In this document: positions 2,776 through 53,569 of the stretch, in pieces
Layout: every line of letters begins with the position of its first letter
Position numbering within the stretch: the first letter of the stretch is position 1
Source: Acidobacteriaceae bacterium
Lineage (GTDB): Bacteria > Acidobacteriota > Terriglobia > Terriglobales > Acidobacteriaceae
Direction: 5' to 3'
Assembly: GCA_003134855.1 (NCBI GenBank)
Contig: PLCS01000010.1
Coordinates: 124,001-188,000 of the forward strand
Length of the DNA stretch: 64,000 bases
Notes under the pieces: generated by a model
What the model was told of the DNA's origin: nothing
The model's database searches: none
What the model saw: the letters and a program-made list of their open reading frames with translations, nothing else
Program-made: the position numbers and the translations under genes

Positions 2776-2787
2776 AAAGCTACCTCC

Positions 2788-2852
2788 GGGGCTAAAGCCC
2801 GCGTCGATTTTGCTGCCTTTGCGGCACGGCTAAAGCCGTGCCCTTTCAAAAT
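2788..2852 (-). repeat. Palindromic repeat family A copy
   Basis: Reverse complement TTTTGAAAGGGCACGGCTTTAGCCGTGCCGCAAAGGC...GGGCTTTAGCCCC matches copies at 30399, 35893, 44984, 47911. Confidence 0.85.
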
Positions 2853-25646: not shown

Positions 25647-27509
25647 CTACGTCACGGTGATGACGAAGGTCTTCGTGCTCTTTACCCCGCTGGTGTTGGT
25701 GTAAGTCGCCACAAAGGTGTTGGTACCGGTGCTCAGCGGAATATTGTCGATCTCGCGCGAGGTGGAAGTGAAGCCGTTGGGGCCGGTCCAGCTCCACGAT
25801 CCGCCGCTGAGTGGCTGCGGTCCAAGGTCCACCGCAGTGCCGCGGGCTACCGAGATACTGGATTCTTGCACCCAGCCGGTGCTGGCGGTGTAAATGTAAG
25901 GCACGATCGCGGTGCCCGCGCCGGGTGCGGTAACGGTGAACGCCTGAGTGCTCTTGGCCCCGCAGCTGTTGGTGTAAGTGGCCGTATAGACGTTAGCGCC
26001 CGCGCTCAGCGCGATGTTGTCGATCTCGCGCGAGGTCGAGGTGAAACCGTTGGGGCCGGTCCAGCTCCATGATCCGCCGCTGGTCGGCTGCGGGCCCAGG
26101 TCCACCGCCGTGGAGGTGGAACTCACGGTTGCAGAGGATTCCTGCGTCCAGGTTCCGCTCACGGAGATATACGGAGTGATCGCGGTGGGCGTGCAGCTGC
26201 CGCCGCCGGTTCCCACGAACGTTGTGATGCTCTGCCCCGGCAACGAGTACGTGAATGCGTCGTTCGAAACGCCAACCGCGCCCAGCTGAGCCAACTGGTT
26301 GGAAGCCGAGGTCTGGTAAGGTGTAACCGAGGTCACGGTCGCGCCCGATATGTCAAAGGTAATGTTTGAGGAGCCGCCATTCGAATTGATGGCTACGATC
26401 ACATAGTTGTTGTTTCCCTTGTAAGACGTGACGTAGACGCCGCTGGTGGGGTTGTAGTTGGCTCCAGTCATCACGTAACCCGGTCTCACAAACTTCGAGT
26501 ACTGGCCCAGGGCATAGGCATCCAAATTCGGGCTGTTTCCGTTCAGCAACAGGGGTGTCCACCAATAGACATAGGCGTTGTACTGCGCCACCGCCATCGA
26601 TTGGTGATACAGCTCGGCTGCCGCGATGGCATCGCTGATGGAAGGCTGGGCAGCTCCATTCGCAGGCGTATAGGTGACCTCGGTCATCCACACATCCTTG
26701 CCCTTGTTCTTGGCATTGGTGTAGTAGAACGGATTGACTCCGTAGTTGTGGCCGGCGACGATCGATACGTGGCCCACCGCATTGGAATCATTCAGCGTCG
26801 GATCGGACTCGTTGAGATTGTAGCTGTCCGACTCCGGCATCATCAGCTTGGTGTTGATCTTGCCGCCTTCCTGCGCGATCCAGGCATCCATCTGCGCGCC
26901 GGAATACCCGCAGGACTCGTAGCTGGGAAGAAAGTCCGGCTCGTTCTGCACGGAGATGGCGTAGAGATTCACGCCGCCGGCCTTCTCGTAAGCGATGAAC
27001 GCGTTCAGATAGTTGGCAAAGTTGTCGTAGTCGGCGGTGTTCAGCGTACCGTCGTCGACGCTGCCATTGCTCTTCCAGACCGCCGGCGGGGTCCACGGCG
27101 TGGCGAAGACGATGACCTGTGAATTGATGGACTGCGCTTGTTGCGCATTGGACCGTTCGGTCGCCCAGTTGGAGCCGCCGGTGGTGGAGCTGGGATCGAT
27201 GCGGGAGCGCAGGATGGTGAGGCCGACTTGGCCCGCGCCGACGCCAAACAGGTTGTTGGCCTGAGTCGAGTTCAGCACCGGCTGCCAAGCCGTCGAAGTG
27301 CCGAATCCGCGGATCGTCTGGTAGGTGGTGCCAAAGTTAATGGCATCGGTCTGCGCGCTGGCCACGGCTGAAGCCAGCAGGATAGTGGATGCAACAATAC
27401 TTGCTAGTCGAATATTCATGATCAACCTACTCCTTGTTGAGCTGTCAAGTGGAGGGATGAAGCCAAAAGGTGCGCACGACTCCCTGTAGACGCACATCAA
27501 GCGCCTCAA
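25647..27509 (-). CDS. Secreted GH30-family glycoside hydrolase (glucuronoarabinoxylanase-like) with two tandem C-terminal Ig-like repeats; start probably near 27419 (MNIRLASIVAS)
   Basis: INFGTTYQTIRGFGTSTAW, YAISVQNEPDFLPSYESCGYSG (acid/base), KDVWMTEVTY (nucleophile). Confidence 0.88.
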   Translation of the reverse strand: MRRLMCVYRESCAPFGFIPPLDSSTRSRLIMNIRLASIVASTILLASAVASAQTDAINFGTTYQTIRGFGTSTAWQPVLNSTQANNLFGVGAGQVGLTILRSRIDPSSTTGGSNWATERSNAQQAQSINSQVIVFATPWTPPAVWKSNGSVDDGTLNTADYDNFANYLNAFIAYEKAGGVNLYAISVQNEPDFLPSYESCGYSGAQMDAWIAQEGGKINTKLMMPESDSYNLNESDPTLNDSNAVGHVSIVAGHNYGVNPFYYTNAKNKGKDVWMTEVTYTPANGAAQPSISDAIAAAELYHQSMAVAQYNAYVYWWTPLLLNGNSPNLDAYALGQYSKFVRPGYVMTGANYNPTSGVYVTSYKGNNNYVIVAINSNGGSSNITFDISGATVTSVTPYQTSASNQLAQLGAVGVSNDAFTYSLPGQSITTFVGTGGGSCTPTAITPYISVSGTWTQESSATVSSTSTAVDLGPQPTSGGSWSWTGPNGFTSTSREIDNIALSAGANVYTATYTNSCGAKSTQAFTVTAPGAGTAIVPYIYTASTGWVQESSISVARGTAVDLGPQPLSGGSWSWTGPNGFTSTSREIDNIPLSTGTNTFVATYTNTSGVKSTKTFVITVT

Positions 27510-28899: not shown

Positions 28900-30939
28900 A
28901 TGGACCTCTACGAGAAAATCCGTATCCTGCCAACGCAGCCCGGCGTCTACCTCTACAAGAACGCCGAGGGTACGGTGATCTATGTGGGCAAGGCCAAAAA
29001 CCTGCGCGCGCGCGTTCGCTCTTACCTGCTGGAGTCCTCGCAGGCCGACGCCAAGACCGGCTCGCTGATGCGCGAGGCCGTTGATCTGGAATACATTCTG
29101 GTCGGCAACGAGTCCGAGGCGCTGGCCCTAGAAACCAACCTCATCAAGGAGCGCAAGCCGCGCTTCAACATTCTGCTTAAGGACGACAAGAGCTATCCCT
29201 ACGTCAAGCTGACCATGCGCGATCGCTTTCCCAAGGTCTTCGTCACGCGGCGGCTGTTGAAGGACGGCGCGGCCTACTACGGCCCTTACTTTCCCAGCAA
29301 CCTGGCCTGGCGGGTCGTCGAGTTGATCCATCGCAGCTTTCTGATTCCCAGTTGCAAGGTCGATCTCTCCCGCTACCACCAGCGCGCCTGCCTGCAGTAC
29401 TACATTCATCGCTGCCTCGGCCCCTGCGTCGAAGCCCTCACCACGCCGGAGACGTACGCCAGCGCGGTGCGCGACGCGCAACTGCTGCTCGAAGGCCGCC
29501 ACGCCGAGCTGGAGCGCGCCCTCACCGCGCGCATGATGGAGGCGGCCCAGGCCGAGCGCTTCGAGGCCGCCGCCAAGCTACGCGACCAACTCTCCACCGT
29601 TCACCAGCTCCAGGAAAAGCAGCGCGCCGCCACCGCCGGGCAGGACGACGACGCCGATGTTTTCGGCTACCACTTCGAGGACGGTTCGCTGGCCGTGAAT
29701 CTTTTCCACGTGCGCGCCGGCAAGATCGTCGACCGCCGCGAGTTCTTCTGGGAGGATTTGCCGGAGCTGCTGGAAGCCGCCGCGCCGGAAGAATCCAACC
29801 CGCCCCAAACGATGGGTGCACAAACGATGGGTGGCCCAGGTCCCGATTCTTGGACCTGGGAAACGACAAAGCCAGAGCCGCCGTTCCACGCCGGTCAGGT
29901 CTTCTCCGCCCTCCTCAAGCAGCTCTACATCGACCAGCGGTACGTCCCGCGCTCGATCCTCGTCCCCACGGACTTCGACGACCGCGAGGCACTGGCCGCG
30001 CTGCTCAGCGAGCGCACCGGCCATCGCATCGAGATCGCCGTTCCCCAGCGCGGAGAAAAACGCTCGCTCGTCGATCTCGCCGGCCAGAACGCCAAGCAGT
30101 CATACATTCAGCGCTTCCGCGTGCTGGAGCCTTCGCGCAAGGCCATTCAGGAGGCGCTGGCCGAGGCGCTCATGCTCGCCGAGTTGCCCCGCCGCATCGA
30201 GTGCTTCGACATCTCCCACATCCAAGGCGCGGAGACCGTGGCCTCGCTGGTCGTCTGGGAAGACGGCCAGATGAACAAGCAGGCCTATCGCAAATTCAAG
30301 GTGAAGACCGTCGCCGGCGTGGACGACTTCGCCTCCATGCGCGAGGTGGTCCAGCGCCGCTATCGCCGCCTGCTCGAGAACACCAAGGGCAATGCCGCTT
30401 TGAAAGGGCACGACTTCAGTCGTGCCGAAAATGCCCCAATAACGCCGCAGGCTCTAGCCCCTGAGGGACGAACCTCTAGGAGCAAAGAACCTTCAACAAT
30501 GCCTTCCCTGATCCTGGTCGATGGCGGTCTGGGCCAGCTTCACGCCGCCGCCGAAGCCCTCGAATCTCTCGGCCTCACCACACAACCGCTGGCGTCGATT
30601 GCGAAAAAGGAGGAAGTCATCTACCTCTACGGCAACGAAGAGGAGCCTATCGTCCTCGACCGCCATTCGCCGGTGCTGCATCTGGTCCAGCTTATCCGCG
30701 ACGAGAGCCACCGCTTCGCCGTCGGCTACCATCGCCAGCGCCGCGCCATGCGCGACCGCGACTCGGAGCTATTGAACATTCCCGGCGTCGGCCCGCAAAC
30801 AAGACAGCGCCTTCTCACTCACTTCGGCAGCCTCCGCGACGTACAGCAAGCTACCGCCGAGTCGCTCGCTGCCGTAGTCCCCCCAAAAACAGCCGAATCC
30901 ATCTGGCGGTATTTTCATGCCGTCCGACTCACAAACTGA
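28900..30939 (+). CDS. uvrC: Excinuclease ABC subunit C, with two in-frame repeat insertions
   Basis: QPGVYLYKNAEGTVIYVGKAKNLRARVRSYL, LILVDGGLGQL, PGVGPQTRQRLLTHFGSLRDVQQA. Confidence 0.96.
   Translation: MDLYEKIRILPTQPGVYLYKNAEGTVIYVGKAKNLRARVRSYLLESSQADAKTGSLMREAVDLEYILVGNESEALALETNLIKERKPRFNILLKDDKSYPYVKLTMRDRFPKVFVTRRLLKDGAAYYGPYFPSNLAWRVVELIHRSFLIPSCKVDLSRYHQRACLQYYIHRCLGPCVEALTTPETYASAVRDAQLLLEGRHAELERALTARMMEAAQAERFEAAAKLRDQLSTVHQLQEKQRAATAGQDDDADVFGYHFEDGSLAVNLFHVRAGKIVDRREFFWEDLPELLEAAAPEESNPPQTMGAQTMGGPGPDSWTWETTKPEPPFHAGQVFSALLKQLYIDQRYVPRSILVPTDFDDREALAALLSERTGHRIEIAVPQRGEKRSLVDLAGQNAKQSYIQRFRVLEPSRKAIQEALAEALMLAELPRRIECFDISHIQGAETVASLVVWEDGQMNKQAYRKFKVKTVAGVDDFASMREVVQRRYRRLLENTKGNAALKGHDFSRAENAPITPQALAPEGRTSRSKEPSTMPSLILVDGGLGQLHAAAEALESLGLTTQPLASIAKKEEVIYLYGNEEEPIVLDRHSPVLHLVQLIRDESHRFAVGYHRQRRAMRDRDSELLNIPGVGPQTRQRLLTHFGSLRDVQQATAESLAAVVPPKTAESIWRYFHAVRLTN
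29829..29864 (+). repeat. Palindromic repeat family D copy inside uvrC
   Basis: gggtggcccaggtcccgattcttggacctgggaaac. Confidence 0.82.
30399..30469 (+). repeat. Palindromic repeat family A copy inside uvrC
   Basis: ttgaaagggcacgacttcagtcgtgccgaaaatgcc...gctctagcccctgaggga; encodes LKGHDFSRAENAPITPQALAPEG. Confidence 0.9.
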
Positions 30940-31082: not shown

Positions 31083-32060
31083 GTGAATTTCAATTCGCTT
31101 TCCCCAGGCGAGCAGGTGGAGATTTCACTCCAACCGGAGTGGCTTCGGCGGCTTGATGCATGGCGCGGCCTTCTTGCCCGATGCACACTCAAGCCAAGCC
31201 GGAAGAACGTCCATGCTTTGCGCAGCCAAACGCTGCGCCTGCGTGTGGCGCTCCAGCAAAGGTTGCAGGAGCAGGGCGCGGATTGCGCCGCCGCGGATGC
31301 GTTCCTGCGTTGGAATAAGGAGGGAAAGAGGCTGCGGAGAGTGCTCGAACCGGTTCGCGACGCGGACGTTTACATGGTCCGGCTCAGCAGCCTTCGCAGT
31401 CGCCTGCAAGGGACAGAGGACGGTGCAACGCAACCGAATCCACGCTGCCTGCGCGAAATCAGCCAACTGGAAGGCCGGCTGAAGCGGCAACGCCAGCGTG
31501 GAATCGGCGAGTTGGTGGCCGTCATTGAGGATCGCGGCAAGCGGTTGAACCGGTCAAGCAAAGAGCTGGAAACGGCATTGACGCCTCACATGCCCATATG
31601 GGTGCATTCGACTGCCCCAGAGGCTTTGCGGATATTTGCAGAACTGACCGGCGAACTTCCCAACCTCAACGCCGGCAACTTGCATGAATATCGCAAGCGC
31701 CTCAAGCAAGCGCGATATCTGGCAGAGAGCTCTGCCACGGCAGATCCTCTGGCCAAGCGGTTGGCCGCCGCATTCAGGAGGATTCACTACGCCGCCGGCG
31801 AGTGGCACGACTGGCAGGAGCTCGCCAGGAAGACTAACCGCATTCTTCCCGGCCATGGCAAACAAGACGGCCTGCTTCGCGTGCTGGAGGCTCTGGCGGA
31901 GAAGGCTCTGCATCGGGCACTCGGCCAATGCCGGCGCTGCACAGCACGCCTCCTGAAGAATGGCGGAGAGACTCGGCCGCTCCCGCCGCGAAAACCCGTA
32001 GTTTCCGAGACTGGTTTACAATTTGACAGCGAATCCCACAAAGTGAGAATCAGCCGCTGA
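31083..32060 (+). CDS. CHAD domain-containing protein
   Basis: KNVHALRSQTLRLRVALQ..., LVRDADVYMVRL-like EPVRDADVYMVRL, LHEYRKRLKQARYLAE, YAAGEWHDWQELA. Confidence 0.85.
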   Translation: MNFNSLSPGEQVEISLQPEWLRRLDAWRGLLARCTLKPSRKNVHALRSQTLRLRVALQQRLQEQGADCAAADAFLRWNKEGKRLRRVLEPVRDADVYMVRLSSLRSRLQGTEDGATQPNPRCLREISQLEGRLKRQRQRGIGELVAVIEDRGKRLNRSSKELETALTPHMPIWVHSTAPEALRIFAELTGELPNLNAGNLHEYRKRLKQARYLAESSATADPLAKRLAAAFRRIHYAAGEWHDWQELARKTNRILPGHGKQDGLLRVLEALAEKALHRALGQCRRCTARLLKNGGETRPLPPRKPVVSETGLQFDSESHKVRISR

Positions 32061-32074
32061 CCGGGATTCCTCTC

Positions 32075-33064
32075 TTGCCGGCGATGGCCGAATCGCTGGC
32101 CGCTGTTGTGCCCCGCAAAACCGCGGAGATGATCTGGCGGCATTTTCATACAAGCAAAGTGACGCATTCTGTTGCTCAACCAGCCGCTTCATCAAACCTT
32201 CACGTGCAAAAAGCGGTCTCTTGGAAGAAAATAGAGTCACATGGCTTTTCGAGGATTTTCGAGAAGAATCATTCGAACACGATTGAGGAACGGTTGAGCG
32301 GCAGGCAAATAGAAATCAAACAGTGGACCGCCGAGGAGTTTGAGCGGCTGGTTCTCGACGGCAACCCCAGGGTCGCGGTCTTCGATTGCGATGGAACGCT
32401 GTGGGGCGGCGACGCCGGTTATGGCTTCATGGCCTGGTCCATCGAGCAGGGCCTGGTTTCGCGCTCCGCCAGCGTTTGGATGGATACGCGCTACCGCGGC
32501 TACCTGGCCGGGCGTGTAAGCGAAGTGGAGATTTGCGGCGAGATGGTGCAGCTCTACGCGGGGCTGCGCGATGCAGAGTTGCGTTCGGCCGCCGCCCGCT
32601 ATGTGAGCGAGTTTGTGCGGCCGCGCATCTTCGCGGAGATGGCTCAACTGCTGGCCAGGCTCGGCCAGGCCGGCGTCGCGTTGTGGGCCGTCAGCTCCAC
32701 CAACAAGTGGGTGGTCGCCGAGGGCGGACGCGACTTTGGCATTCCCGAAGAGCGCGTGCTGGCCGCCGAGGCGCGCGTCGTGGACGGCCTCATCACCTCC
32801 GAGCTGGTGGACGTACCTACCGGCGCGGCCAAGGCTGTCTCGCTGAAGCGCGTGGGCATCGAGCGCCCAGATGCGGTCTTCGGCAACTCCGTCCATGATC
32901 TGGCGATGCTGGAAATAGCGCGCTGCGCCTATCCGGTCAACCCCTCGCCGGCGCTGATCGAAGCGGCGGCCCGGAACGGCTGGGGCTACTTCCGGCCTGA
33001 GACGGCAGAAGGCGCCGAAGCGACCGTGGCGGGCGAATCATCCCTTTACGAAACCAACCTCTAG
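32075..33064 (+). CDS. HAD-family phosphatase (phosphoserine phosphatase-like); true start probably downstream (e.g. TTG 32294) because the 5' part is uvrC-derived
   Basis: VAVFDCDGTLWGGDAG, WAVSSTNKWVVAEGGRDFGIPEERVLAAE, AVFGNSVHDLAMLEIA. Confidence 0.8.
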   Translation: MPAMAESLAAVVPRKTAEMIWRHFHTSKVTHSVAQPAASSNLHVQKAVSWKKIESHGFSRIFEKNHSNTIEERLSGRQIEIKQWTAEEFERLVLDGNPRVAVFDCDGTLWGGDAGYGFMAWSIEQGLVSRSASVWMDTRYRGYLAGRVSEVEICGEMVQLYAGLRDAELRSAAARYVSEFVRPRIFAEMAQLLARLGQAGVALWAVSSTNKWVVAEGGRDFGIPEERVLAAEARVVDGLITSELVDVPTGAAKAVSLKRVGIERPDAVFGNSVHDLAMLEIARCAYPVNPSPALIEAAARNGWGYFRPETAEGAEATVAGESSLYETNL

Positions 33065-35852: not shown

Positions 35853-35892
35853 GTTGATTCTGCGTATAAGTTATCTCTGATTAAAACTAAAT

Positions 35893-35969
35893 TTTGAAAG
35901 GGTATGGCTATAGCCGTGCCGCAAAGGCTGAAAAATCGGTGTGGGCTTTAGCCTCTGAGGGAATGTTGG
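35893..35969 (+). repeat. Palindromic repeat family A copy
   Basis: ttttgaaagggtatggctatagccgtgccgcaaaggctgaaaaatcggtgtgggctttagcctctgagggaatgttgg. Confidence 0.85.
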
Positions 35970-37702: not shown

Positions 37703-38230
37703 TTAGCCGACGCGGTCGATGACGACGGATTGGAGGACGACAGGGGTCTTGGGCTTGTCCTGGCCCCCGCGGGGGACTAATGAAATCTTGTTGACAATCT
37801 CCATGCCCTCGACAACTTCGCCGAAGATGGTGTGTTTGCCGGTGAGCCAGGGCGTGGCGGCTACGGTGATGAAGAACTGGCAGCCGTTGGTGCCGGGGCC
37901 GGAGTTAGCCATGGCCAGCTTGCCGGACTGATCGAACTTATGCGGCCCTTTGGTTTCGTCCTGGAAGCGATAGCCGGGTCCGCCCATGCCGGTGCCGGTG
38001 GGATCGCCGCCCTGGATCATGAAGTCGGGAATAACGCGATGGAAGATGGTGCCGTCGAAGAGCTTGTCGGTGGACTTGACGTGCGTGCTGGGGTGGGTCC
38101 ATTCCTTGCCGCCTTCGGCCAGCTCGATGAAGTTCTTGACAGTGATGGGCGCGTCCTGCTCGAAGAGCTTGACGGTGATCTTGCCTTCGCTGGTAGAGAA
38201 GACGGCGTAGGTTCCTGCTGCGTGGGTCAT
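37703..38230 (-). CDS. Peptidylprolyl isomerase (cyclophilin type), cytosolic
   Basis: FHRVIPDFMIQGGDPTGTGMGGPGYRF, MANSGPGTNGCQFFIT. Confidence 0.95.
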   Translation of the reverse strand: MTHAAGTYAVFSTSEGKITVKLFEQDAPITVKNFIELAEGGKEWTHPSTHVKSTDKLFDGTIFHRVIPDFMIQGGDPTGTGMGGPGYRFQDETKGPHKFDQSGKLAMANSGPGTNGCQFFITVAATPWLTGKHTIFGEVVEGMEIVNKISLVPRGGQDKPKTPVVLQSVVIDRVG

Positions 38231-38257
38231 ATGTTGCTCCTTGTTCCTTGAATTCCA

Positions 38258-38392
38258 GCTTTCAGCCGTCAGCTATCAGCCATCAGCTATCAGCTTTTCG
38301 TACTTGCATATTTCATGGATCGATTACCAAAACCGGCTCCAGCATCATAAAAAACTAAAAACTGAAAGCTGAGAGCTGAGAGCTAGTTACGG
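38258..38392. repeat. AGCTTTCAGC/AGCTATCAGC-type long inverted intergenic repeat
   Basis: agctttcagccgtcagctatcagccatcagctatcagc ... aaactgaaagctgagagctgagagctag. Confidence 0.7.
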
Positions 38393-39073
38393 TTTGGGAG
38401 TGGCGACCGGCGCGGGCGGCAGCGGCTGTCCTTCGCGCACAATCGTGACCTTCTTCAGCACTACTGGCGTCAGCGGCTTGTCGTTGCCGTCGCGCGGGAC
38501 GCGGGCAATGGCCTTGACGACATCGACGCTGGCATCGTCGCACTGGCCGAAGAGGGTGTAATGCTGGTTGAGCGAGTCGTAGCCCTGCTCGGTGATAAAG
38601 AACTGGCTGCCGTTGGTGTTGGGGCCGGAGTTGGCCATGGCCAGGCGGCCGGGCTTGTCAAAATTGAGATTGGGATCGAACTCATCCCTGAAGGCGTAGC
38701 CGGGATCGCCCGTGCCGGTGCCGGTGGGGTCGCCTCCCTGAATCATGAACCCGGGGATCACGCGATGGAAGATGGTGCCGTTGTAGAACGGCTTGTGGTG
38801 TTTCTGATGGGTGGTGGGGTCGGTCCACTCCTGCGTGCCCTCGGCCAGGCCGATGAAGTTGGCCACCGCCTTGGGCGCCTGCTTCTGGTAGAACTGGCAG
38901 GTGATGCGGCCCATGGAGGTGTCCATCACGACAGTGGGGCCGTTGGGGCGGGTCAGGGCGGCGGCGGTGGCAGCGGGCGCGTCGGGAAGATCGTTCGAGG
39001 AGGTTTGGGCGTAGGCCGCAACGGCAAAGGCTGCGGCCAGGGCGGGAAGGAGGAGTGTGTGCTGAAGTTTCAT
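38387..39073 (-). CDS. Peptidylprolyl isomerase with signal peptide
   Basis: Signal peptide MKLQHTLLLPALAAAFAVAAYAQ; FHRVIPGFMIQGGDPTGTGTGDPGY. Confidence 0.94.
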   Translation of the reverse strand: MKLQHTLLLPALAAAFAVAAYAQTSSNDLPDAPAATAAALTRPNGPTVVMDTSMGRITCQFYQKQAPKAVANFIGLAEGTQEWTDPTTHQKHHKPFYNGTIFHRVIPGFMIQGGDPTGTGTGDPGYAFRDEFDPNLNFDKPGRLAMANSGPNTNGSQFFITEQGYDSLNQHYTLFGQCDDASVDVVKAIARVPRDGNDKPLTPVVLKKVTIVREGQPLPPAPVATPKP

Positions 39074-44950: not shown

Positions 44951-45151
44951 TAGTGGTGTCCGCCACACAGATGGTCGTTTATGTTTTGAAAGGGCACGAC
45001 TTCAGTCGTGCCGTAAACGGCCATAAATGAGCTGGGCTTTAGCCCCTGAGGGAAGACTCTTCTATGAATTCATCCCATTTGCGGTCACGGTAAATGACCC
45101 TATTTGCGGCGGACACCACTAGTGGTATCCGCCATACAGATGGTCGTTTAT
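44951..45151. repeat. Direct-repeat and inverted-repeat cluster, possible IS-end remnant, containing a family A copy (44984-45053)
   Basis: 32-bp near-identical repeats tagtggtRtccgccaYacagatggtcgtttat at 44951 and 45120; inverted ggtgtccgcc/ggcggacacc at 44954 and 45108. Confidence 0.65.
44984..45053 (+). repeat. Palindromic repeat family A copy
   Basis: ttttgaaagggcacgacttcagtcgtgccgtaaacggcc...gggctttagcccctgaggga. Confidence 0.88.
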
Positions 45152-47910: not shown

Positions 47911-48034
47911 TTGTATCAAGGCACGACTTCGCCGGGGTCCCCATCGACAGGTCTTCGTCGATGGGGTGGGAGTTCAGTCGTGCCGAAAAGGCAGCCGAAG
48001 ATTGCCTGAGCTTTAGCACCTGAGGGAATGTTGG
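47911..48034 (+). repeat. Palindromic repeat family A copy interrupted by a family B element
   Basis: aaggcacgacttc-[gcc B gag]-ttcagtcgtgccgaaaaggc...gagctttagcacctgagggaatgttgg. Confidence 0.85.
47934..47969 (+). repeat. 36-bp palindromic repeat family B, nested in family A
   Basis: ggggtccccatcgacaggtcttcgtcgatggggtgg; perfect 10-bp stem. Confidence 0.9.
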
Positions 48035-50761: not shown

Positions 50762-53569
50762 TTAGTCCACCGTAACTGTGGTGAAGGTCACGTAGCTTCC
50801 CAGCACATTACCGTCAGAGAATGAAACTACGAACTGATTGTAGCCCCAGAAAAGTGAAAAGGTGTCGCTGCAGGTGAATCCGGGGTCTGGAACCTGTGGG
50901 GGATAAGTAACGGTCACTTTCACCGTTCCCGGCCCGTTTCCGGAAGCCGGGCTCAAGCTGCCGTTGGGAGGGGGGGGATAAGGAAAGTTCTGAAGGGATG
51001 CCGTCCATGTGACTCCGGTTGCGGGCTGGACGGAGAAAGTGGCCGTCCCACTGCCTCCGGCGCAGCCGCCAATAACTGGCGGGTTGAGTGCGAGGGTTGC
51101 TGGAGTAATCGAGTCAACTCCCGACGAAACCACACTGCCATTCCCGGAAAGGCTGATCACTATGGGGGATGCCGGGAAGTTACCGGTAATGCCAAGCGCC
51201 GCATACTCACTCTGAGCCACCGAGGGAGTGAAGAGATCCGTGATGGTGCATGTGCCGCCGACTGGGAGTGTCATCCCGGAACAACCGTCGCTGACCAGAG
51301 TGAAGTCCGGAGACTGAGCGGGGTTCGGCCCACCGACCACCGCACCGGAGATGGTTACAGGAGCGGTACCGCTGCTGGTCACCGTCACCGATTGGGATGA
51401 GCTGGCAACCCCAAGCGCCTCGGTTCCAAAATTCTGAGAAAGGACTGAAACGCACACCGCGGCCTGAGGGTTCGGAGGAGTGCCTTGGGGAAGGTTTTGT
51501 AGGTCTCTTTGCAGATCACTTACCCCCACAGCGAATGTGGTAATGTCGCCCGCCAGGCCGAGGCTGAGGTTGCCGATTATTGTAGTGAGGAGTTCGACGT
51601 TATCCTTTCCCGTGGGGGCAGGGTTCTGAATATAGCTGGAAGCCACAACCAAGGTGTGAATTCCCTCGTAAATCTCAGCAGCTACAACCAAGGGCGAAGC
51701 CACAACAACAGCACCTGTTTTGGTAACAATCAAAATCGCAGACGGTGCTAACTTCAAGGTGTTGATAATCAGGTCGTATGCGGCGGGAGAGGTACTGATC
51801 GTCTGATTGAAGTACAGAAGGTTAGATGCGACACCCGAGGCAGTTGCTCCCCCGCTATTGGCCACCTCAAAATTGGATTCGAGCACAGCCTGAGCAGAGA
51901 GGCAACCCGTGCCCGTCGCGGCCTGGGCGGTTATAGCGGCTCTTCCAGAAACGAGATTCCTTAAGCCCGCGGGCACCGCGCTCGCGCCAACCCCAGCCGA
52001 GTTGGTCAAAGACTGCAGAAGAGCCAAAGACACTTGGTCGATCTGGCCAAGTTCGGTTGGTCCTATTATCACGGGCTGTCCATTTGTTGTCCCGAGATTT
52101 GCTGACGACGCCGTACCGTCGACGACGGCTTGTATCTGGGGAATGATTGCATTCAATGTGCCGATAAGGGCGGTGAGGTCGGAAGATACAGGGCCCGAGG
52201 TGATTTCGGAGCTGAGCTGATTGGCGACGGCAAGTTCGCCCTCCAACAGGCCTAATGTAACGGTTCCTGGAACACTTGGAGGCGCTACAGGCACGGCGGC
52301 GATTTGGAGTTGTACACTGCTGGACTGAGCGGAAGACTGGACCACTACGACATTGACCGCACCACTGAAAAAAGTAGTACCGCTTCTGATCACGGGAACA
52401 GGCACGATAAGAGACGTCGGGCTGACAAATATTGGCTGAATGTCAACAGAGAATCCGCCAGATGAGGAAGAGAAGTTGACCGTTGCGGTGGAATCGAATC
52501 CGGAGCCGGTGATGGTGAGTGAATCGAATGGGTTGCCCGTGGTCTCGCTGAGCGAGCTGATTTGAACTGTCGACGGCGCGGATGTAATGGTTACCGTCGC
52601 CGACCCGGACTTTGTTGTGTCCTCGGTGCTGGTGGCCGTGACGGTGACGGGGTTGGTGGCAGGGACAGCGCTGGGCGCGGTGTAGAGGCCGGCCGTCGAA
52701 ATGGTACCGACAGTGGAGTTGCCGCCTTGAACGCCGCTCACGCTCCAGGCGACCGTCGAGCTGTAGGCTCCGGTTCCTGTGACAGTGGCTGCGCATTGTG
52801 AAGTTTGCCCTGTCTGCACTGACGCGGGAGTGCAGGAGGCCGCAACCGAAGTGATCGTCGGCGGGTTGGTGGCAGCAGACAGAGTAATGGATGCAGAACC
52901 GGACTTTGTTGCGTCCTCGGTGCTTGTGGCTGTGACGGTGACGGGGTTCGTGCTGGGGACAGCGCTGGGTGCAGTGTAGAGGCCCGCCGCCGAGATGGTT
53001 CCGACAGTGGAGTTGCCGCCTTGAACGCCGCTCACGCTCCAGGCGACCGTCGAGCTATAGGCTCCGGTTCCTGTGACGGCGGCTGTACATTGTGATGTTT
53101 GGCCGGTTTGGACCGAGGCCGGAACGCATGACGCCGCAACGGAAGTGATGGTTGGCGGAGCAGCGGGCGGATTCAGCGTGATGGCGGCCGAGGCGGACTT
53201 CGTTGTGTCGGTCACGCTGGTCGCCGTCAAGGTCACGGTGGTGGTCGCGCTGACCGTGGCTGGCGCAGTATAAGTAACGCCTGTCACGGTGGAAGCGCTG
53301 AGTGCGCCTGCGCCGGAGCCGATGCTCCAGGTGACACCTGCATTGGAAGAGTCGTTAGAAACAGCCGCAGTGAAGGACTGCACCCCGTTGCCGCTGAGCG
53401 ATGCGGTGGTGGGGCTCACGCTGACACTGATGGAAGGTGGTGGGTTTGAATTCGATCCACTGTTGTTTCCTCCACAGCCGGAGAGGAAAACGAGCGCCGC
53501 AAAGCCAGAGAAACTGATCCTGAGTAGGATTGCCGAACCGGCGAAGTTTTTGCGAACGAACGTCTTCAT
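50762..53569 (-). CDS. Secreted lipoprotein with multiple bacterial Ig-like domains
   Basis: Lipobox LVFLSGCGGNNSG; two near-identical tandem units PPTITSVAASC.PASVQTGQTSQC...; HYDIN/choice-of-anchor-like FGTEALGVASSSQSVTVTSSGTAPVTIS. Confidence 0.85.
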   Translation of the reverse strand: MKTFVRKNFAGSAILLRISFSGFAALVFLSGCGGNNSGSNSNPPPSISVSVSPTTASLSGNGVQSFTAAVSNDSSNAGVTWSIGSGAGALSASTVTGVTYTAPATVSATTTVTLTATSVTDTTKSASAAITLNPPAAPPTITSVAASCVPASVQTGQTSQCTAAVTGTGAYSSTVAWSVSGVQGGNSTVGTISAAGLYTAPSAVPSTNPVTVTATSTEDATKSGSASITLSAATNPPTITSVAASCTPASVQTGQTSQCAATVTGTGAYSSTVAWSVSGVQGGNSTVGTISTAGLYTAPSAVPATNPVTVTATSTEDTTKSGSATVTITSAPSTVQISSLSETTGNPFDSLTITGSGFDSTATVNFSSSSGGFSVDIQPIFVSPTSLIVPVPVIRSGTTFFSGAVNVVVVQSSAQSSSVQLQIAAVPVAPPSVPGTVTLGLLEGELAVANQLSSEITSGPVSSDLTALIGTLNAIIPQIQAVVDGTASSANLGTTNGQPVIIGPTELGQIDQVSLALLQSLTNSAGVGASAVPAGLRNLVSGRAAITAQAATGTGCLSAQAVLESNFEVANSGGATASGVASNLLYFNQTISTSPAAYDLIINTLKLAPSAILIVTKTGAVVVASPLVVAAEIYEGIHTLVVASSYIQNPAPTGKDNVELLTTIIGNLSLGLAGDITTFAVGVSDLQRDLQNLPQGTPPNPQAAVCVSVLSQNFGTEALGVASSSQSVTVTSSGTAPVTISGAVVGGPNPAQSPDFTLVSDGCSGMTLPVGGTCTITDLFTPSVAQSEYAALGITGNFPASPIVISLSGNGSVVSSGVDSITPATLALNPPVIGGCAGGSGTATFSVQPATGVTWTASLQNFPYPPPPNGSLSPASGNGPGTVKVTVTYPPQVPDPGFTCSDTFSLFWGYNQFVVSFSDGNVLGSYVTFTTVTVD

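Follow-up and report, generated by a model that had tools for sequence, protein, structure and literature searches.

The uvrC gene of this Acidobacteriaceae genome carries a dispersed palindromic repeat, family A, in frame within a linker of its RNase H-like domain. We consider it very probable that this insert and its counterparts across the genus are transposase-mobilised palindromes that are tolerated in disordered linkers of a UvrC protein held under purifying selection.

The family A copy in linker 2 of UvrC

The open reading frame in question lies on the plus strand of the window (the whole stretch of 64,000 nucleotides that was analysed) and is identified as uvrC by a match of 529 bits to NCBIfam TIGR00194 and by the Pfam domains GIY-YIG, UVR, UvrC_RNaseH and HHH. 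The UvrC_RNaseH family (PF08459) covers UvrC residues 422-608, which places the linker 2 insert inside the RNase H-like domain. The features of the gene are as follows:

28900-30939, plus strand: uvrC open reading frame, 679 aa, intact, both nuclease active sites present
29821-29867, plus strand: family B repeat (TMGGPGPDSWTWET), in frame in linker 1, common to this genome and sister species G009
30208-30210, plus strand: codon of D437 (FDISH), the first catalytic Asp, which precedes the insert, invariant column
30399-30468, plus strand: family A repeat, 70 bp, in frame in linker 2, coding for LKGHDFSRAENAPITPQALAPEG
30406-30426, plus strand: family A hairpin 1, GGGCACGACTTCAGTCGTGCC, with an 8-bp stem and a 4-nt loop
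30450-30468, plus strand: second conserved block of family A as seen in aligned copies, GGCTCTAGCCCCTGAGGGA, coding for the ALAPEG part
30469-30500, plus strand: rest of the expanded linker 2, 32 nt of non-repeat sequence coding for RTSRSKEPST
30520-30522, plus strand: codon of D541 (VDGG), second catalytic Asp of the RNase H-like domain, invariant column

Aligned copies define the family A unit as hairpin 1 and the block GGGCTTTAGCCCCTGAGGGA, separated by some 20 nt of variable spacer, and the 21-nt palindrome GGGCACGACTTCAGTCGTGCC has two exact copies in the window as against 0.00 expected by chance. Linker 2 leads from a helix ending in RRY to the strand bearing DGG and has 48 residues here, compared with the 12 of RRLKDEDQPMPS, the short state that, going by the outgroup and most of the genus, is the ancestral one. 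The original prediction of a dispersed repeat in frame in uvrC, beside the strand with a catalytic Asp, is borne out by family A, of which this genome holds at least 39 copies. That prediction had drawn the repeat from 30399 to 30500 and derived about 35 extra residues from it; family A matches in the uvrC interval are confined to 30399-30468, and while the linker did gain 36 residues, only 23 of its residues are repeat-derived and the last 32 nt fall outside the repeat. It had also taken the nearby downstream Asp as the first catalytic one, which is incorrect, as D541 is the second and D437 precedes the insert. We take both to belong to the D-D-H catalytic set of UvrC. D437, D541 and H604 as well as several GIY-YIG positions are invariant alignment columns, so that the GIY-YIG and RNase H-like sites are both kept.

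An AlphaFold2 model based on a 47-sequence alignment resembles solved UvrC halves (PDB matches 3c65, 2nrt and 1yd6) and comprises a helix at residues 476-502, a low-confidence stretch and a strand at 537-541 with confidence above 90. Block means of pLDDT are 50-59 for residues ~501-530 and below 50 for 302-326, with neighbours above 90. As to the suggested check whether the insert loops out, it is modelled as a low-confidence loop between well-modelled elements. In the conserved blocks of uvrC, dN/dS is 0.05-0.16 (about 0.1) for species pairs including tagged ones, which indicates that the gene is under purifying selection. No plasmid record was found to resemble the uvrC locus.

Family A as a dispersed repeat and its transposase

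Besides the copy in uvrC, the window contains four further copies of family A:

2781-2851, minus strand: family A copy
35891-35962, plus strand: family A copy
44982-45053, plus strand: family A copy following a tRNA gene
47917-48027, plus strand: family A copy whose hairpin 1 is split by a nested family D repeat (GGGGTCCCC...GGGGTGG)

These had been called intergenic; three lie in no frame of at least 100 codons, and the copy at 35891-35962 meets only a stop-to-stop frame that starts there. The nesting of family D within family A at 47917-48027 shows the relative age of the two insertions. An Rfam search of the window returned one tRNA and nothing else. More widely, a search for family A was positive in each of 37 genus genomes and negative in 14 genomes of the nearest other family. 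Its consensus, TTTTGAAAGGGCACGACTTCAGTCGTGCCG or GTGTCAGGGCACG..., has no unpaired GTAG/CGTC tag beside the stem and family A is thus no REP of the GTAG/CGTC type. With strand-specific insertion in mind, the strands of the family A copies were compared: on contigs C8 and C15 of this genome they agree regionally (8 switches, P about 0.02), and the complete genome G061 shows this less clearly (P 0.10); the pattern is possibly linked to replication direction.

At ten sister-species loci (L304, L306, L308, L309, L317, L319, L326, L327, L328 and L333), inverted pairs of family A copies stand at near-constant spacing around open reading frames for Y1 transposases; at L317, just one of the two flanking copies is above the blast cut-off. 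The open reading frame at L326 matches NF047646 (REP_Tyr_transpos) with 106.7 bits at a cut-off of 80. Family A thus shows two hallmarks of a TIRYT/TIRtron-derived repeat, inverted copies around the transposase gene, seen in sister species, and dispersal as a family without the transposase; set beside a MITE, a solo family A unit equals one end of the transposase element. This arrangement identifies family A as the terminal inverted repeat of an element with a REP-associated tyrosine transposase, and the notion that the intergenic copies could be fragments of uvrC is ruled out along with it. In the genome studied here, we found no transposase flanked by family A, and the Y1 proteins that it does have share no more than 33% identity with the A-flanked ones; the cognate transposase may have been lost from this genome and mobilisation may have ceased. 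Family B, with at least 40 copies in this genome, surrounds a Y1 transposase gene on its own contig C9 (locus L064, copies at 535-579, 1297-1330 and 1895-1937), where one copy overlaps the 3' end of the transposase open reading frame.

Family A is also found in frame in dnaE2-like, mnmE, mnmG, pbp, rarA, miaA, rsmB, thyX and dinG genes of the genus and, in this genome, in mtaB. In one dnaE2-like gene for an error-prone polymerase (L281), the family A insert is preceded by a partial one (EVLKGHGLSGNNESEMEVLKGHDFSRA).

Our preferred reading is that family A forms the end repeat of a small IS200-like TIRYT/RAYT element with a Y1 (HUH) transposase gene between inverted copies, and that solo copies, mobilised in trans by this transposase, would have spread over the chromosome and settled mostly between genes. 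Some copies would have hit genes, of which those in frame in disordered linkers escaped purging. In UvrC, such accepting sites would be linker 1, which joins the N-terminal part to the RNase H-like part, and linker 2, which connects the helix behind the first catalytic Asp to the strand that bears the second; both linkers would have gained and lost copies repeatedly across the genus. The UvrC studied here would then be a working enzyme with a nearly neutral loop of about 36 residues added in linker 2.

Filling and history of the two UvrC linkers

We collected uvrC from nearly all of 81 genus genomes and detected recognised repeats in linker 1 (around residues 291-330) of 37 out of 75 sequences and in linker 2 of 17 out of 72. 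Five families (A, B, C, E and G) occur there in varied combinations and frames and are patchily distributed among sister species, with linker lengths between aligned blocks ranging from 11 to 146 aa for linker 1 and from 12 to 116 aa for linker 2. The conserved parts of uvrC (125 kb) contain no credible repeat, the six weak matches all falling at one homologous spot. In the ortholog alignment, the outgroup and most of the genus keep a linker 2 of 12-14 residues; orthologs outside the genus mostly do the same and only a few Acidobacteriaceae have longer ones, so that comparable linkers elsewhere do not overturn the original prediction. Within linker 1, G009 translates family A as LKGHGFSRA, and G052 and G063 translate it as YQGTTSVVP, with LKGHDFSRA as another form of the LKGH frame. 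Since these frames differ between species, the unit is the DNA and not the peptide. The close relative G009, whose N block is 97% identical, has an empty 12-aa linker 2 and carries family A in linker 1 beside the family B copy that it shares with the genome studied here. All recognised linker repeats are in sense orientation (79 species-family cases versus 0), even though families B and C are open in all six frames, and this counts against our preferred reading.

The insertion history of linker 2 is recorded in its copies in conflicting ways. The copy studied here has its nearest relatives in linker 2 of G003 and G047, with which it partly shares the variable spacer, and is farther from the other copies of its own genome, and most expanded linker 2 alleles of the genus end alike in KEP..(M/L)PS; judged by sequence likeness, both suggest an old shared allele of linker 2. 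In five species, hairpin 1 of the linker 2 copy is nearly the same, with 0-2 differences in 32 nt, although third positions of uvrC diverge by 25-38% among them (rough Poisson P 0.002). Such near-identity does not agree with free drift after a single old neutral insertion; renewed insertion, homogenisation with copies elsewhere and constraint are each a possible cause. Parsimony yields 15 gains of expanded linker 2 in one analysis and 10-18 in another, which are no counts of events given that 30 of 72 branches are unresolved and that the KEP end suggests shared ancestry. An apparent sorting of the uvrC sequence just downstream of linker 2 with the filled state (6 changes as against 15-17 in other blocks) disappeared upon removal of the KEPST linker columns that this block still contained, and so gives no support to an exchange of flanking alleles.

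A single old family A insertion in linker 2, inherited or exchanged by homologous recombination and made patchy by loss or exchange, would account for the KEP..(M/L)PS end and for the proximity to the G003 and G047 copies, and we hold it to be a serious possibility with somewhat less than an even chance. It fits poorly with the different spacers of the G045 and G097 linker 2 copies, with the scatter of filled and short states over trees built from conserved uvrC (most blocks need 13-18 changes, and shuffles about 19.6) and with the sequence beside the linker, which is unsorted by state after linker columns are dropped. Linker 1, with its differing frames and subtypes, demands several insertion events either way.

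It is also conceivable that the insert is functional and that UvrC activity is tuned by its repeat-derived residues or by the hairpin, be it in the DNA or in the mRNA. The conservation of hairpin 1 beyond uvrC third positions in five species and the KEP..(M/L)PS end kept by nearly all expanded linker 2 alleles speak for such a role, as does the prominence of repair and replication genes among tagged genes, both here and in PMC3733652. We nevertheless find it improbable, because species differ freely in what the linker contains, in its length (12 to 116 aa) and in the reading frame, close relatives such as G009 lack the linker 2 insert, the insert has low pLDDT and many unrelated genes are tagged. 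A wider version, in which linker repeats are kept or re-acquired as they alter nucleotide excision repair, with uvrC as a recurrent and reversible target that tunes repair or mutation rate and the over-conserved hairpin as its trace, strikes us as very unlikely. Repeats can break metagenome assemblies, and in G052 the two parts of uvrC indeed lie on separate contigs; still, an artefact of assembly or gene prediction is practically refuted by independent assemblies of other genomes, which have equivalent inserts at this site, and runs counter to the 679 open codons in an assembly of 3.94 Mb that is 99.6% complete in 17 contigs. Tolerance of transposase-mobilised palindromes is, in our view, the reading that best accommodates these observations.

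Relation to known systems and further duplications

The TIRtron/TIRYT arrangement was described by Di Nocera et al. (2013; PMC3733652), with a sharply defined Acidobacteria group that comprises T. saanensis, K. versatilis, A. capsulatum and G. mallensis, and family A shares with it the Y1 (HUH) transposase gene between inverted repeats that are also dispersed. The intragenic examples given in the available portion of that paper are GTAG/CGTC REPs, whereas we see a TIR-type repeat in frame in proteins. The same source reports REPs within uvrA, uvrB, dnaE2, recBCD and other repair genes, at times twice per gene, and speculates that REP tags tune repair genes; as far as its accessible text goes, these cases concern other phyla and repeat families, without a genus-wide filling of two UvrC linkers by multiple families.

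REPINs and RAYT-mobilised REPs are matched by family B, which is REP-like and located around a transposase gene of its own genome, while family A differs from them as a single two-part unit without a GTAG tag. Rickettsia palindromic elements (RPE) are palindromic repeats that lie in frame in many protein genes as well as between genes. Family A likewise occurs in several otherwise conserved genes and in intergenic regions and thus qualifies as a coding palindromic element of RPE-like mode of action; it differs in its host and in having an identified transposase that carries the repeat on both sides.

The principle of in-frame palindromes, from Rickettsia, and REPs in genes of the uvrA, uvrB and dnaE2 type are therefore already known; the novelty lies in the TIR type of the element, in its acidobacterial setting and in the way multiple families have colonised two UvrC linkers across a genus. 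In the openly readable literature, the supplement on intragenic REPs aside, we came across no account of palindromic repeats that lie in the UvrC linkers of Acidobacteriota. An acidobacterial repeat is now tied to its transposase, and the 70-odd UvrC proteins of one genus form a natural series with linkers that are empty, singly filled or multiply filled near catalytic residues. Through this series, it becomes testable how much sequence encoded by mobile DNA can be accommodated by a repair nuclease and whether repair genes are preferred as targets or just tolerate insertions, a question that dates from 2013 (PMC3733652).

Apart from the repeat families, a degraded second 3' end of uvrC is found 1.1 kb downstream of the gene, at 32087-32149 of the window (~63 bp, matching 30856-30918), behind an open reading frame with a CHAD domain (31083-32060) and at the start of one for a HAD-like hydrolase; it resembles a gene terminus that an insertion duplicated and left behind. 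Long direct duplications of 294, 185 and 76-106 nt with 81-83% identity are located at 52599-53186, 25655-26112 and 37864-38787.
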